A DNA stretch of 41,876 bases from Alphaproteobacteria bacterium (GTDB lineage: Bacteria > Pseudomonadota > Alphaproteobacteria > RF32 > CAG-239). Below, in pieces: positions 5,280-41,876 of the stretch. The notes under the pieces were generated by a model that saw only the letters and a program-made list of their open reading frames with translations, did no database searches and was not told where the DNA came from. Each line of letters opens with the position of its first letter. Position 1 is the stretch's first letter. The translations under genes and the position numbers were made by a program. The DNA lies in NCBI GenBank assembly GCA_017475935.1, contig JAFVEP010000049.1:1-41876 (forward strand), given 5' to 3'.

Positions 5280-5903
5280 CTAGTAGAATTGCCAGCCGAT
5301 TGTGTTGGAAGGACCGAAACAAGTACTCATTGCTTTGTCTACAGTCATTGGTCCATCTTTGGCGCATTGAGTCATATGATCTGATGTACAGGATGTGCGG
5401 CTGAAAGAATAGTTTCCGATGTTCCATATAGACCCATATGCTATCAATCCTGATGAATCGCCCCAATCTTGGGAGAGAATTTCGATGCAGGCATCTTCCG
5501 GAATATCAGTTAAAGAGATAACGAAACTTTTGTTATCAACACCCCAAGCTGGATTCCCTGTGCTGACAACGATATCACCGCCGAAAGGGTTTGAAGCGGT
5601 TATTTCGTACGAATCACCCAAATTTACTGATGAGGGTGCAACATTGGCACTATCCAGACCGCTGATGATCTTTGCTTTGTACACAACTTGCGCAGATAGG
5701 CCGTTATAATTGTTGCGTCCGGCATAGAGAGTGCGGATACCGTTGGCAAGTTGAGTGACCATATCTATAGTTTTATTGGTGCGGTATTTTTGCATGGCTT
5801 TGGAATAGCCGGCGATTCCACCCACCGACAATACACCGATAATAGCCAAGACGCCGAGCATTTCGATCATACTGCGACCATTTTGGTTTATTTTTGTATT
5901 CAT
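5280..5903 (-). CDS. Type IV pilin-like protein (prepilin N-terminus, cysteine-rich head), paralogue 1
   Basis: This 207-residue protein has a class III signal. A short polar leader ends in Gly9 (INQNG), followed by RSMIEMLGVLAIIGVLSVGG, with Glu at position 5 of the mature chain as in type IV pilins and type II secretion pseudopilins. A prepilin peptidase should cut after Gly9. The mature N-helix continues into YRTNKTIDMVTQ. The globular head has NPFGG, the block CIEILSQDW, three further cysteines near the C-terminus, and ends in IGWQFY. A close paralogue lies at 17678-18262 and a divergent one at 24460-25164. No pilus assembly ATPase, platform protein or prepilin peptidase is in the window. 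AGGAG precedes the ATG. A candidate promoter lies at 6006-6034. Fibre subunit, minor pilin or pseudopilin cannot be told apart. Confidence 0.85.
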   Translation of the reverse strand: MNTKINQNGRSMIEMLGVLAIIGVLSVGGIAGYSKAMQKYRTNKTIDMVTQLANGIRTLYAGRNNYNGLSAQVVYKAKIISGLDSANVAPSSVNLGDSYEITASNPFGGDIVVSTGNPAWGVDNKSFVISLTDIPEDACIEILSQDWGDSSGLIAYGSIWNIGNYSFSRTSCTSDHMTQCAKDGPMTVDKAMSTCFGPSNTIGWQFY

Positions 5904-17677: not shown

Positions 17678-18262
17678 CTAGTAGAAGCTCCATGTAAGAG
17701 TATTATTATTACCATCACAAGCACTTATAACGGTACCCATTTCCATAACACCATTTTTGCCGCAACGGAGCGAGCCGCTGTCGCTACAACTATTAGCACT
17801 TCCAAAGGATGTAGCGTTATTACCTATACCATAAGAGATTAAGCTTGTTGCATCGCCCCATTCTTGAGATAAAAGTTCGACACAGGCATCATCAGGAACA
17901 TTTGTGATTTGAATGTAGAATGCTTTTTTATCACTACTTGAATATTTTCCTCTCACGGCAACCGTTATGTTCCCGCCGAACGGATTAACAGCGACAGAAG
18001 ATGAAGAACCGGAACCGTCAAAGGCAGATTCAGGCAAGATTTTGGCTTTGCGCAGAACAGTTCCGGAAACACCATCGTAACTTCTCTGACCGCTGTACAG
18101 TGTGCGGATGCCGGTGGATATTTGTGTAATTTGTTCAATTGTTTTGTTGGTTCTATATTTGCTCATAGCTTTAGAATAACCGGCAATACCGCCAACGGAT
18201 AACACACCGATAATAGCTAAAACGCCGAGCATTTCAATCATCGAACGACCGTTCTGATTCAT
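17678..18262 (-). CDS. Type IV pilin-like protein, paralogue 2
   Basis: This 194-residue paralogue of the protein at 5280-5903 has the same leader and N-helix (NQNG, then RSMIEMLGVLAIIGV), with prepilin peptidase expected to cut after Gly5. The frame is open upstream, but the ATG at 18262 has AAAGGAG and puts the leader at the family's length. The head shares NPFGG, the block CVELLSQEW, the later cysteine pair spaced like paralogue 1, a further cysteine and the ending LTWSFY. Between these anchors the two heads differ strongly. It lies 98 bases after yejB on the same strand but has a good promoter of its own (18306-18334) beside a 20-base palindrome. No assembly genes are nearby. Confidence 0.85.
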   Translation of the reverse strand: MNQNGRSMIEMLGVLAIIGVLSVGGIAGYSKAMSKYRTNKTIEQITQISTGIRTLYSGQRSYDGVSGTVLRKAKILPESAFDGSGSSSSVAVNPFGGNITVAVRGKYSSSDKKAFYIQITNVPDDACVELLSQEWGDATSLISYGIGNNATSFGSANSCSDSGSLRCGKNGVMEMGTVISACDGNNNTLTWSFY

Positions 18263-18305
18263 TTTAATTTTCTCCTTTGTTAGTTTAATATGATCATACA
18301 TTAAC

Positions 18306-18353
18306 ATTTTATCGCGCTTATTTTGGGTTGTCAACTATGACTTTAGTCATAGT
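18306..18353 (-). promoter_or_regulatory. Promoter of pilin-like gene 2 with an overlapping palindrome
   Basis: On minus, TTGACA (18329-18334) and TAAAAT (18306-18311) are 17 bases apart, close to the sigma-70 consensus. A near-perfect palindrome, ACTATGACT-AA-AGTCATAGT on the minus strand, occupies 18334-18353 and touches the -35 element, so it is a candidate operator. It could instead act as a weak hairpin after yejB, but no T-run follows. Confidence 0.65.
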
Positions 18354-38244: not shown

Positions 38245-40707
38245 ATGAAACTAGTTGTTGTTGAATCTCCGGCGAAGGCCAAAACCATTAATAAATACCT
38301 TGGAAACGACTATAAAGTATTGGCAAGCTACGGACACATACGTGATCTTCCGAGCAAAGACGGATCCGTTGATCCGGAACATGATTTTGCCATGCATTGG
38401 GAATTCAGTGCCGCCGGCCGCAAACATTTAAATGATATTATAGCCGCACTTAAAGACTGTGATACGCTCATTCTCGCATCCGATCCGGATAGAGAAGGGG
38501 AAGCGATTGCGTGGCATATTTTAGAGGAATTGAAAGAAAAAAAGAAACTCGACGGCAAAAAAATTCAACGTGTCGTTTTTCATGAAATTACAAAATCCGC
38601 CGTCAAAGAAGGAATCGAAAATCCGCGGGAAATCGATCAGGATTTGGTCAGCGCTTATATGGCGCGTCGGGCACTGGATTATTTGGTCGGTTTTACCTTG
38701 TCGCCGGTTTTATGGCGCAAACTTCCGGGTTCGCGTTCTGCCGGCCGTGTGCAATCGGTGGCTTTGCGTTTGATTTGTGAACGCGAAACCGAAATTGAAA
38801 AATTCAAGCCGGAAGAATATTGGACCATTGATGTGGACTTGATTACGCAGGCGCAAGCTCTGATGACAACGCATCTGATTAATCTTGATGGCAAAAAATT
38901 GGCTAAGTTCTCCATTAATACCGAGGCTAAAGCACTGGATGCCAAAGCTAAAATCGAAGCGCAGAGTTTTCATATTGATGAAGTTGAACGCAAAAAGGCC
39001 AGCCGCTATCCGGCGCCGCCGTTTACAACTTCCACCCTGCAGCAGGAGGCCGCGCGTAAACTGAGATTTTCCGCTAAAAAAACCATGCAGGTGGCGCAAA
39101 AACTTTATGAAGACGGTATTATTACTTATATGCGTACCGATGCCGTTAATTTATCCAAAGATGCCGTCAAGGCTTGCCGTGAGGCGATTGAAAAATATTT
39201 CGGTGCGGCCTATTTGCCGAAAACAGCCAAAGAATATAAAAATAAAACTAAAAATGCACAGGAAGCACACGAGGCGATTCGTCCGTCTGATGTGATGAAT
39301 ACACCGAAAAAGATGGAAATGAAGCTGGACAGTGATGCTTACAAACTTTACGAATTGATCTGGAAACGCACCGTGGCTTGTCAGATGAATCCGGCCATAT
39401 TGGATCGCGTGATTGTCGATGCGCTTTCCGCAGACGGGCAAATTTTGCTGCGGGCGACAGGTCAGGTTATTCAATTCGACGGTTTTCTGCGGCTTTATCA
39501 GGAAAGTAAAGATGACACAGATGAAAACGACGATAATGTGATTCTGCCGAATGTTGAAAAAGGCGAGTCGGTCAATAAGGGAGATATTAAGCCGGCGCAG
39601 CACTTTACCACGCCGCCGCCGCGCTTTACCGAAGCCAGCTTGGTGAAAAAATTGGAAGAACTCGGTATCGGCCGCCCGTCGACTTATGCCAATATTATTG
39701 CGGTTTTGCAAGAGCGCAAATATGTTAAAGTCGAAAAACTGCGCTTTATTCCGGAAGATCGCGGAAGAATTGTGACCGTATTTTTGGAAAACTTTTTCAA
39801 AAAATATGTGGAATATGATTTTACCGCACAGTTGGAAGAATATTTAGACGATGTTTCCGCCGGTCATATGGAATGGAAAAAACTTCTCGGCGGATTCTGG
39901 GCAAAATTTATTAAGACGGTTGAAAATGTACAGCCGCTGCAGCTGACAGAGGTTATTAACCGCATTGACGAAGCCTTGTCGGCACATTTGTTCCCGCCGC
40001 GCGAAGACGGTACGGATCCGCGCAGCTGTCCGGTTTGTCATAACGGACGTTTGAGTATTAAGTTCGGCAAGTTCGGTGCTTTTCTCGGCTGTTCAAACTA
40101 TCCGGATTGCAAATATACCAAGCCGCTGACCGATACCAAAGAGGAAGAAGCGCAAGCCGTTCAAAATTCAACCGCCGCGCCGGCCAATGAAGATAAAGTT
40201 TTGGGACAGCTCAAAAATATGAATGTTTATCTGAAAAAAGGACCGTACGGATTTTATGTTCAACTTGGGGAAGATGCCACAGCTACAACCGAAAAACCGA
40301 AACGCTCTTCTTTGCCGAAATTTGTTAAACCGGAAGAATTGACCTTCGATCAGGCAGAGATACTTTTGACACTGCCGCGTGATTTAGGTAACGGTATAGA
40401 GGTGAATATCGGCAAGTTTGGGCAATATATCAAACAAGGCGCAAAATCAAAGTCGCTTACGGGTGAGGACAATATTTTCAATATAACAGCGGCGCGTGCT
40501 GAAGAGTTGCTGGCCTCTGCGCCGTCTAAACCGGAGCCGAAAGTGTTGGCGAAACATCCTCAGACCGGTGAAGATATTGTTTTAAGCAAAGGCCGTTACG
40601 GTATGTATCTGAAATGCGGAAAAAACAATTACGCTATTCCGAAAGGATATGCGCCGAGTGCGCTATCGGCGGAAGATGCCGTCAAAATCGTCACCAGCAA
40701 AAAATAA
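38245..40707 (+). CDS. topA: DNA topoisomerase I
   Basis: TopA relaxes negative supercoils by a type IA mechanism. The 820-residue protein has an N-terminal Toprim domain (VVESPAKAKTI, then ASDPDREGEAIAWH), the four-domain ring with catalytic Tyr295 in GIITYMRTDA and the RPSTYANII block. After residue 590 comes one Cys4 zinc ribbon (CPVCHNGRLSIKFGKFGAFLGC with CxxxxxxC following), then two zinc-less C-terminal repeats (GPYGFYVQLG and GRYGMYLKCG). It lies 10 bases after dprA; the dprA-topA pair is common. Confidence 0.96.
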   Translation: MKLVVVESPAKAKTINKYLGNDYKVLASYGHIRDLPSKDGSVDPEHDFAMHWEFSAAGRKHLNDIIAALKDCDTLILASDPDREGEAIAWHILEELKEKKKLDGKKIQRVVFHEITKSAVKEGIENPREIDQDLVSAYMARRALDYLVGFTLSPVLWRKLPGSRSAGRVQSVALRLICERETEIEKFKPEEYWTIDVDLITQAQALMTTHLINLDGKKLAKFSINTEAKALDAKAKIEAQSFHIDEVERKKASRYPAPPFTTSTLQQEAARKLRFSAKKTMQVAQKLYEDGIITYMRTDAVNLSKDAVKACREAIEKYFGAAYLPKTAKEYKNKTKNAQEAHEAIRPSDVMNTPKKMEMKLDSDAYKLYELIWKRTVACQMNPAILDRVIVDALSADGQILLRATGQVIQFDGFLRLYQESKDDTDENDDNVILPNVEKGESVNKGDIKPAQHFTTPPPRFTEASLVKKLEELGIGRPSTYANIIAVLQERKYVKVEKLRFIPEDRGRIVTVFLENFFKKYVEYDFTAQLEEYLDDVSAGHMEWKKLLGGFWAKFIKTVENVQPLQLTEVINRIDEALSAHLFPPREDGTDPRSCPVCHNGRLSIKFGKFGAFLGCSNYPDCKYTKPLTDTKEEEAQAVQNSTAAPANEDKVLGQLKNMNVYLKKGPYGFYVQLGEDATATTEKPKRSSLPKFVKPEELTFDQAEILLTLPRDLGNGIEVNIGKFGQYIKQGAKSKSLTGEDNIFNITAARAEELLASAPSKPEPKVLAKHPQTGEDIVLSKGRYGMYLKCGKNNYAIPKGYAPSALSAEDAVKIVTSKK

Positions 40708-40786: not shown

Positions 40787-41008
40787 ATGAGTAAAGAAGA
40801 ATTGCTTGAATTAACGGGCGAAGTTGTTGAAAAATTGCCGAATGCCATGTTTCGTGTTAAGTTGGAAAACGGCGTGGAAATTTTGGCGCATACTGCCGGA
40901 AAAATGCGTAAATTCCGTATTCGCGTGATGGTCGGCGATAAAGTGGATATTGAAATGACGCCTTATGATTTGACGAAAGGTCGTATTACTTTCCGCCACA
41001 AAGATTAA
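40787..41008 (+). CDS. infA: Translation initiation factor IF-1
   Basis: IF-1 binds the ribosomal A site during initiation. The 73-residue S1-like OB-fold protein matches the family throughout: [37 protein letters not shown] and [15 protein letters not shown]. The ATG at 40787 follows GAGG at 40777-40780; an earlier TTG in frame at 40775 is unlikely. maf, a frequent neighbour of infA in Alphaproteobacteria, is not the next gene. Confidence 0.96.
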
Positions 41009-41023
41009 ATCTCTGTTCCTGAG

Positions 41024-41150
41024 TCATCACTGATGATGTTATAGCAGGAAGGCAGTGAATAAGTTGCTTTTTTGTAAAGCAACAAATAAGCTGCATTATT
41101 GCTGTTAATAGGTTTTGACTTCCTGCTACCTCTCATCAAGGTAGTTTTTT
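41024..41150 (+). promoter_or_regulatory. Structured leader RNA with competing stems (attenuator-like)
   Basis: After infA the plus strand can fold into a long rod: TAGCAGGAAG (41042-41051) pairs with CTTCCTGCTA (41119-41128); inside, CAG/CTG (41053-41055 with 41102-41104), AATAA/TTATT (41058-41062 with 41096-41100) and a perfect 8-bp hairpin GTTGCTTT/AAAGCAAC (41063-41070 with 41076-41083). The 3' arm of the rod shares bases 41126-41128 with a terminator stem (41126-41144), so the two cannot form fully together. TGATGA at 41031-41036 can pair with TCATCA either at 41024-41029 or at 41133-41138 in the terminator loop. The next gene's ribosome binding site starts 6 bases after the T-run, so there is no room for another promoter. 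This is the layout of a transcription attenuator; no known riboswitch class was recognised. Confidence 0.55.
41126..41150 (+). terminator. Intrinsic terminator upstream of the small basic protein gene
   Basis: CTACCT (41126-41131) pairs with AGGTAG (41139-41144) around a 7-base loop and is followed at once by six T. It would end infA transcripts or act as the terminator half of an attenuator. Confidence 0.85.
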
Positions 41151-41167
41151 ATGGGAAAGGAACCAAA

Positions 41168-41428
41168 ATGCAAGACTGTTATTTGCCTGACGGTACGGTT
41201 CGAATTAGAGAGGAAATCGTTAATTATCGCTATGTTCGGTGGCAGATTTATGAAATCAGTCACGCCCTTGATTGTATGAATGAAGAGGAAATGCGCAAGG
41301 TTATGAAATATATTATGCGCATGACCAACAATCGCTTCACTTTTGATGTGCGTACCAAAAAACAGCGCGAGCGAGACGGGCGGAAATTTTTCAAAAAGAT
41401 AGCCGCTGAGAGAAAAGCGCTTGAATAG
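41168..41428 (+). CDS. Small basic protein of unknown function
   Basis: I do not recognise this 86-residue protein. The ATG at 41168 follows AAAGGAA at a good distance. It is predicted to be mostly helical: a central segment (YVRWQIYEISHALDCMNEEE) leads to a strongly basic C-terminal half with RTKKQRERDGRKFFKKIAAE, which could bind nucleic acid. It has no signal peptide and no membrane helix. Its expression should depend on read-through of the terminator ending at 41150. The frame is supported by the ribosome binding site and by codon use like that of its neighbours, but a longer family match could not be tested. Confidence 0.65.
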   Translation: MQDCYLPDGTVRIREEIVNYRYVRWQIYEISHALDCMNEEEMRKVMKYIMRMTNNRFTFDVRTKKQRERDGRKFFKKIAAERKALE

Positions 41429-41814
41429 CGGCGGATTGTTGGGTCCGTCGGTTGTTTGCAAAGATTCGGGAGGACTTCTTGAATTTTTCACCAGAATGAT
41501 CAAACGGGATTGAAGAGAGGAAGAATAACAATAGAGCATATAACACATTATATGCTTTGTGCATTTTTATTTAGGGTGATGATAGGAATAATATGTTATA
41601 TAGATAAGTTATTTAGAATTAATTGCGTAAATATCTTGTTTATTACTTGACATTTCTTATTTTAAACGATATAACAAGGAGAATGTGAAAATAAGGATTA
41701 TGTGCGTATAGTAAGAGTAATAGAGTTAATAAAGCGGAGAAAAGGGCAATATAAGCGATTTCACGAAAACAAGTTAAAAAACAGAATTTTATTAAATGAA
41801 AGGAATTAATCAAG
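41429..41814. other. AT-rich stretch without a recognised gene
   Basis: I see no convincing coding region. It holds a perfect 8-bp inverted repeat, GCATATAA/TTATATGC (41536-41543 with 41548-41555), followed by a T-rich stretch that might be a weak terminator, and a strong promoter at 41647-41675. The base composition becomes more AT-rich towards the end. Confidence 0.6.
41647..41675 (+). promoter_or_regulatory. Strong sigma-70-type promoter near the window end
   Basis: TTGACA (41647-41652) and TATAAC (41670-41675) are 17 bases apart. Transcription should begin near 41682 and run out of the window with a leader of over 130 bases before the first good start codon. Confidence 0.65.
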
Positions 41815-41876
41815 ATGAAAAATCATAAAAAAATAATCAAAGAAAAAGGGAGAAAAAAATATGGATATGTACAAAC
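41815..41876 (+). CDS. Possible 5' end of a gene leaving the window
   Basis: The ATG at 41815 follows AAAGGA at about 10 bases and the frame stays open to the end (MKNHKKIIKEKGRKKYGY...). A second start at 41861, in another frame, follows GGGAG at about 8 bases and reads MDMYK. Either could be the true start. Too little is visible to name a product. Confidence 0.3.
   Translation, partial: MKNHKKIIKEKGRKKYGYVQ

Follow-up and report, generated by a model that had tools for sequence, protein, structure and literature searches.

A leader RNA between infA and a small basic protein gene in an alphaproteobacterial genome: a probable 5′-truncated copy of a unit related to C4 antisense RNA and sRNA-Xcc1

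The window, i.e., the whole 41,876-nt stretch of DNA analyzed here, lies at the end of contig C78, which stops at 41876 and belongs to a metagenome-assembled genome of 1.37 Mb. Comparison of TopA placed the host among gut and rumen Alphaproteobacteria, with an identity of 79% to Azospirillum sp. CAG:239 and of 85%–89% to several rumen assemblies. Near the contig end, infA is followed by a linker, a structured RNA element with an intrinsic terminator, and the gene of an 86-residue basic protein (Table 1); the promoter of the locus is presumably that of infA. A sequence-only reading of this DNA had described a candidate attenuator, composed of a long rod with a perfect inner hairpin and a terminator placed 6 nt before the next ribosome binding site (RBS). 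The sequence and a terminator scan confirmed this description, and folding indicated that the hairpins after infA are real (–41.1 kcal/mol for the segment versus –29.6 ± 3.3 kcal/mol for shuffled sequences, z –3.5, 0/200). The RNA had also been called unfamiliar, and indeed an Rfam scan of the window at gathering thresholds named no family.

Table 1. Features of the infA-proximal leader element and its surroundings, in positions of the whole window
Feature	Position	Strand	Evidence or remark
infA, IF-1, 73 aa	40787..41008	+	Pfam eIF-1a, 2e-24; sister-genome orthologues 95%–100% identical
Linker, 33 nt, foreign to the element	41009..41041	+	DNA similarity to the C18 copy stops at 41042
Whole duplicated module (rod, terminator, 86-aa gene)	41042..41452	+	97% identical to C18:1-411, where the C18 contig ends
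C4-like RNA body (rod)	41042..41128	+	Covariation in 19 relatives; covariance model R1, 95 bits
Hairpin 2	41096..41111	+	Loop TGCTGTTA (41100–41107) is the b sequence; b1:b complementarity in intact copies
a strand, GGTTTTGA	41111..41118	+	a1:a complementarity in intact copies; partnerless in the window copy
Intrinsic terminator	41126..41150	+	Terminator scan
Shine-Dalgarno region, GGGAAAGGAA	41153..41162	+	Sequence
86-aa small basic protein gene	41168..41428	+	C18 copy encodes the same protein
Terminator-like inverted repeat, 3′ of the ORF	41429..41450	+	Terminator scan

The rod is closed by a 10-bp helix between TAGCAGGAAG (41042–41051) and CTTCCTGCTA (41119–41128), and further inward lie a second helix of GCAG (41052–41055) and CTGC (41091–41094) and a conserved internal loop of TGAATAA (41056–41062) and AAATAAG (41084–41090). 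The apical hairpin (41063–41083) is a perfect stem of 8 bp formed by GTTGCTTT (41063–41070) and AAAGCAAC (41076–41083). In the terminator, CTACCT (41126–41131) pairs with AGGTAG (41139–41144) around the loop CTCATCA, in which the conserved TCATCA occupies 41133–41138, and six T residues follow (41145–41150); from there it is 6 nt to AAGGAA and 17 nt to the ATG at 41168. The competition between rod and terminator that had been proposed was not supported; even the longest rod has just 3 nt (41126–41128) in common with the terminator, so that the two compete only at the base. The linker contains the palindrome TCATCA-C-TGATGA (41024–41036). Its TGATGA (41031–41036) can pair, as claimed earlier, with either TCATCA at 41024–41029 or the copy in the terminator loop, but it belongs to the linker and has no homologue in intact copies.

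Searching the genome itself revealed a second locus on contig C18 with a 95% match, rising to 97% over 41042–41452. This copy carries a promoter-like sequence, TTGACA-17-TACGAT (sigma-70-like), followed by about 90 nt of leader ahead of the shared part. In the window copy the promoter, the first 5′ hairpin, and the strands a1, b1, and U, defined below, are missing; the end of infA and the linker stand in place of the promoter and 5′ half of intact copies, and an alignment of R1 over 40953–41041 leaves most pairs broken. Judged by this comparison, which rests on one metagenome assembly, the window feature is a 5′-truncated copy without the front half, with its junction at 41042. The RNA differences between the two copies concentrate in the hairpin-2 loop (TGCTGTTA in the window versus TCCGTAA in C18); the rod helices are intact, and the stem change from C-G to U-G stays pairable. 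Both copies encode the identical 86-aa protein, and none of the seven DNA differences between the two genes changes an amino acid (P about 1e-5 under neutrality), which argues that the protein is still in use.

The element is absent 3′ of the 21 infA genes of sister genomes, most of which have a terminator-like hairpin of their own there. Because the window copy lost its promoter and 5′ half, its terminator may serve mainly as the end of infA, so that the reservation attached to the earlier attenuator proposal, namely a terminator that merely ends infA, is approached. We regard the window copy as probably both the infA terminator and an infA-driven leader. Three further observations were made around such loci. 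Immediately 5′ of the C18 unit's promoter (L004:533-563) there is an additional copy of the terminator (CTGCTACCTCTCATTAAGGTAG-T7), probably left over from a further tandem copy or produced by recombination between terminators. Two other species each have a complete unit adjoining topA or infA (L159:5549-5756 and L160:6065-6261); therefore this neighborhood received units more than once. A similarity of the infA upstream region to the a/b loops of the window (CAAAA..TAACAG near 40700) was set aside as possibly due to chance.

Alignment of the RNAs from 19 loci carrying homologues of the 86-aa protein (C18 included, the window copy left out) yielded a structure of nine helices, with 89.5% of cells paired and double changes in 36 of the 49 pairs. 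None of 500 shuffles reached the observed value, and sliding the partners gave 37%–45%. Helices 5 and 6, in the rod, are 98%–99% paired and show double changes at 7 of 12 pairs. Covariation in homologous leaders, suggested earlier as a check, is thus massive, and the idea of a structured leader with alternative pairings that ends in an intrinsic terminator before the RBS is supported. Two long-range helices join the halves of the intact unit. One pairs a with a1, which forms the loop of the second hairpin in the 5′ half (TCAAAACC in C18); the other pairs b, in the hairpin-2 loop, with b1, the linker that follows this second 5′ hairpin. Both are locus-specific, as 0/20000 between-locus swaps, which ignore relatedness, matched the own pairing; at 49 loci outside the derivation set the own partner was best in 44 (swaps 0/5000).

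Two further complementarities were found by swaps that likewise ignore relatedness. In intact copies, the terminator loop is complementary to the loop of a hairpin that the window copy lacks, the first 5′ one (kissing; 0/20000, N=61), and because it is kissed in this way TCATCA is conserved there. In addition, the upstream strand U is complementary to the 5′ strand of the body, R (0/20000), and R therefore has two exclusive partners, U or the downstream strand D. The conserved alternative to the rod is this U:R pairing, absent in the window, and not the terminator. At all loci tested, constrained folding without pseudoknots preferred U:R to the rod, with a block that removed neighboring pairs too; a search for an antiterminator gave no clear one.

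Of 152 genomes of the family, 145 gave hits with the covariance model R1; in the wider class Alphaproteobacteria the count was 22 of 240. The window's own genome has 8 copies of the RNA, and the maximum is 20, in genome G121. R1 matched none of 37 loci on viral contigs bearing the core motif. At gathering thresholds, Rfam names none of 20 checked loci at the RNA position, and Rfam has no family for this leader RNA. At 46 of 49 additional loci, the RNA is followed within 60 nt by the start of an ORF of 60 aa or longer; the control, which looked the opposite way, gave 2 of 49. Across these genes, the layout is that of an attenuator, a structured leader with an intrinsic terminator directly before a Shine-Dalgarno sequence and an ORF. 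The genes encode lipoproteins, porins or outer-membrane-like proteins, prepilin-like, SHOCT, zinc-ribbon, and HTH proteins. Homologues of the 86-aa protein occur in 14 of the 152 family genomes, and all 19 examined loci of this protein family, counting C18 and setting the window copy apart, have the same kind of RNA upstream. The protein itself is predicted to form three helices (AF2 pLDDT 89), with no PDB fold match despite this confident model. Neither Pfam, NCBIfam, PHROG, nor PADLOC offers a convincing family for it, tblastn against phages found none, and a scan of the genome_contigs set with the protein gave no match.

C4 has been described as an immunity RNA of phages. In the annotated phage P1 record the order is a1, b1, C4, a2, b2, icd, and our pairing script recovers a1 and b1 of P1. 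Intact leader units share with C4 (RF01695; a1/b1 target RF03163) the order of promoter, a1, b1, and body with a small gene behind, a body built of a closing helix and two hairpins with b in the hairpin-2 loop and a before the closing helix, unit-specific loop sequences, and the upstream a1/b1 complementary to a/b that the window copy lacks. They differ from C4 in being multi-copy and chromosomal and in a body that ends in an intrinsic terminator. Rfam C4 matched neither the window nor the loci (P1 itself scores 68.8 bits); since R1 in turn found no match in the P1 region, the C4 link rests on architecture and not on a profile score. A further difference is the lack of a2/b2 at the RBS in the window's protein-linked group, where the own pairing was no better than swapped ones (3753/5000) and sequence mimicry of the RBS was absent (283/5000 swaps); within the wider group, L086 is a clear exception with an a2/b2 target at its RBS. 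Given this missing target we call the leader RNA C4-like and do not file it as C4, and for the same reason base pairing to the gene leaves the regulatory step in the window's group unexplained. In C4, RNase P trims the 5′ end and leaves ~77 nt (PMC5320573); the a/b loops and occlusion of the RBS are likewise part of the biology described for it (PMC5320573, PMC12197685).

Another related family is RF02221, which was found in 58 of the 398 phylum genomes searched. This family, sRNA-Xcc1, is an integron or plasmid sRNA of Xanthomonas and others, so far regarded as a virulence or vesicle RNA that acts in trans in Xanthomonas and Xylella. Its model matched several relatives of our RNA over the full length at 32–38 bits, under the Rfam gathering score of 53; among them, L018, L111, and L057 scored 34–38 bits. 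The reverse search with R1 hit the RF02221 loci L032 (3.6e-6) and L026 (2.1e-5). Together with the common core and internal loop and the presence of a1/b1 upstream of sRNA-Xcc1 as well, these sequence matches indicate that the leader RNA is a distant relative of sRNA-Xcc1. The two differ in that sRNA-Xcc1 loci have a clear RBS target mimic (0/5000 swaps), which the window's group lacks. In L036, for example, TCGAAAA..AATAGTAGC is present in both the upstream strand and the copy at the RBS of the next gene. The comparison suggests that sRNA-Xcc1 acts as a C4-type cis regulator rather than mainly in trans, and a1/b1 with the RBS mimic would offer a cis explanation for it. The genes after RF02221 loci encode SymE, Bro-N-like, and Rha-family proteins and proteins of no named family; SymE beside sRNA-Xcc1 has been noted with no mechanism given (PMC12444791). 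As a side observation, the RF02221 loci L025-L054 across Proteobacteria carry an a1/b1 strand upstream, and many have a copy at the RBS of the next gene.

Taken as a whole, we consider it rather probable that the window holds a 5′-truncated second-site copy of a leader unit related to C4 and sRNA-Xcc1, in which the leader unit would represent a new branch related to these two RNAs. The homology, covariation, truncation, position before genes, and lack of an RBS target in the window's group are computed; promoter use, termination, control of read-through, and any trans action we infer. For the intact units, a leader attenuator is the most economical reading, and its regulatory steps may be pictured as follows. 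The unit would comprise a promoter, a pseudoknotted RNA of ~190 nt, an intrinsic terminator, a Shine-Dalgarno sequence, and a gene, and its anatomy suggests that the leader is transcribed from the unit's own promoter. The 5′ half would expose a1 in a hairpin loop and b1 in a linker, the 3′ body would hold b and a, and a1:a and b1:b would pair specifically inside each unit, while the first-hairpin loop would kiss the terminator loop. Pairing of the 5′ strand of the body with U or D would give two mutually exclusive folds. By default most transcripts would stop at the terminator and release a stable short RNA, and the downstream gene would be produced from read-through, set by the fold or by the unit's own short RNA binding nascent a1/b1. 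By analogy, IsrK of Gifsy-1 (RF01394) may serve as a precedent: it has its own promoter and terminator and gives a terminated short RNA and a read-through mRNA, with alternative folds demonstrated experimentally (PMC4825925). It differs in having no sequence match to our RNA and in targeting the translation of orf45/anrP. Thus the attenuator proposed by the sequence-only reading fits the family, but the half responsible for switching is missing from the window copy. Deprived of promoter, a1/b1, first hairpin, and U, this copy would have its body locked in the rod form; transcription would come from infA, most infA transcripts would end at 41150, and the 86-aa protein would be made by infA read-through.

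Other explanations have to be weighed against this truncated-copy reading. A cis riboswitch sensing a metabolite or protein, in which the tertiary fold with its conserved AAUAAG/AAAUA internal loop would act as aptamer and the terminator would provide the expression platform, is consistent with the strict cis position before functionally diverse genes, the conserved unpaired core, the bistable pairing, and the lack of an RBS antisense target in the window's group. We nevertheless judge it unlikely, as the layout fits the antisense RNAs C4 and sRNA-Xcc1, whose relatives have a verifiable RBS target, and the regulated genes share no common pathway. Equally unlikely is that the feature is simply the infA terminator accompanied by a fortuitous hairpin, or a remnant no longer in use. 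This copy has indeed lost its promoter and 5′ half, and infA has no other terminator here, but the intact helices, with their still pairable stem change, and the purely synonymous ORF differences speak against it. A mainly trans-acting sRNA, as published for sRNA-Xcc1, with the gene behind as a read-through by-product, seems slightly less probable still. The own promoter and terminator, loops that differ between copies, and the Northern-verified 88-nt sRNA-Xcc1 (PMC2996969) agree with such an RNA; the ORF right behind the terminator in 46 of 49 loci and the location of the pairing partners inside each unit itself do not.

The remaining two explanations center on the 86-aa protein, and to both it is an obstacle that RNAs of this class also stand before dozens of genes unrelated to it, among them those of lipoproteins, porins, and prepilins. 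The sequence-only reading favored a switch operated by the basic product itself, binding its own leader. The protein is basic (20 K+R, 14 D+E) and always accompanied by the RNA, but in view of the other genes a switch specific to it finds no support, and such autoregulation is very improbable. Type III toxin-antitoxin systems consist of a tandem-repeat RNA antitoxin and a toxin of the ToxN/CptN/TenpN type. The order of RNA, terminator, and small basic ORF, present at every locus of the protein family, resembles that of ToxIN, and the RNA could by this token be an antitoxin of the 86-aa protein. Unlike ToxIN, however, the leader RNA has no tandem repeats, the protein shows no toxin homology or credible match to a toxin or defense family, and the downstream genes are heterogeneous, which makes this the most remote of the explanations considered.

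If the truncated-copy reading is extended to the family, a broader picture is possible, which we put forward tentatively and at somewhat less than even confidence. The RNAs would form an unlisted class of bistable C4-fold leaders that, among the Alphaproteobacteria of gut and rumen, has spread to as many as 20 copies in a genome of 1.5 Mb, with every copy controlling one accessory or surface gene by its own a/b–a1/b1 self-recognition coupled to the terminator via the kissing loop, and sRNA-Xcc1 would belong to the same superfamily, acting in cis on its neighbor's RBS. Independently of this picture, an architecture related to C4 and absent from Rfam is found here as a chromosomal leader, reused many times in small genomes, with regulation apparently shifted, relative to C4, from the RBS to the terminator. 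C4-type regulation thereby becomes testable outside phages, and with four covarying, partly exclusive interactions the leader RNA offers a clear in vitro system.

Several minor observations concern variants of the unit. A shorter subtype of about 150 nt with the same a1/b1–a/b logic occurs in L095, L096, L097, L098 (in the window's own genome), L120, L123, and L126; it sits before small HTH-type proteins in L097, L098, L120, L123, and L126, and an intact ORF has seemingly been lost in L095 and L096. On the minus strand, the window encodes two prepilin-like proteins (NGRSMIEMLGVLAIIGVLSVGGIAGYSKAM) at 5280–5903 and 17678–18334; such genes often lie behind the leader RNA in related genomes, and R1 has no match before these two. 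In L104, L115, L118, L119, and L122, hairpin 1 bears a common insert of ~30 nt (CATCATATAAATATTCTAGACAAATATATGG-like), and long ORFs of 300–500 aa lie downstream.
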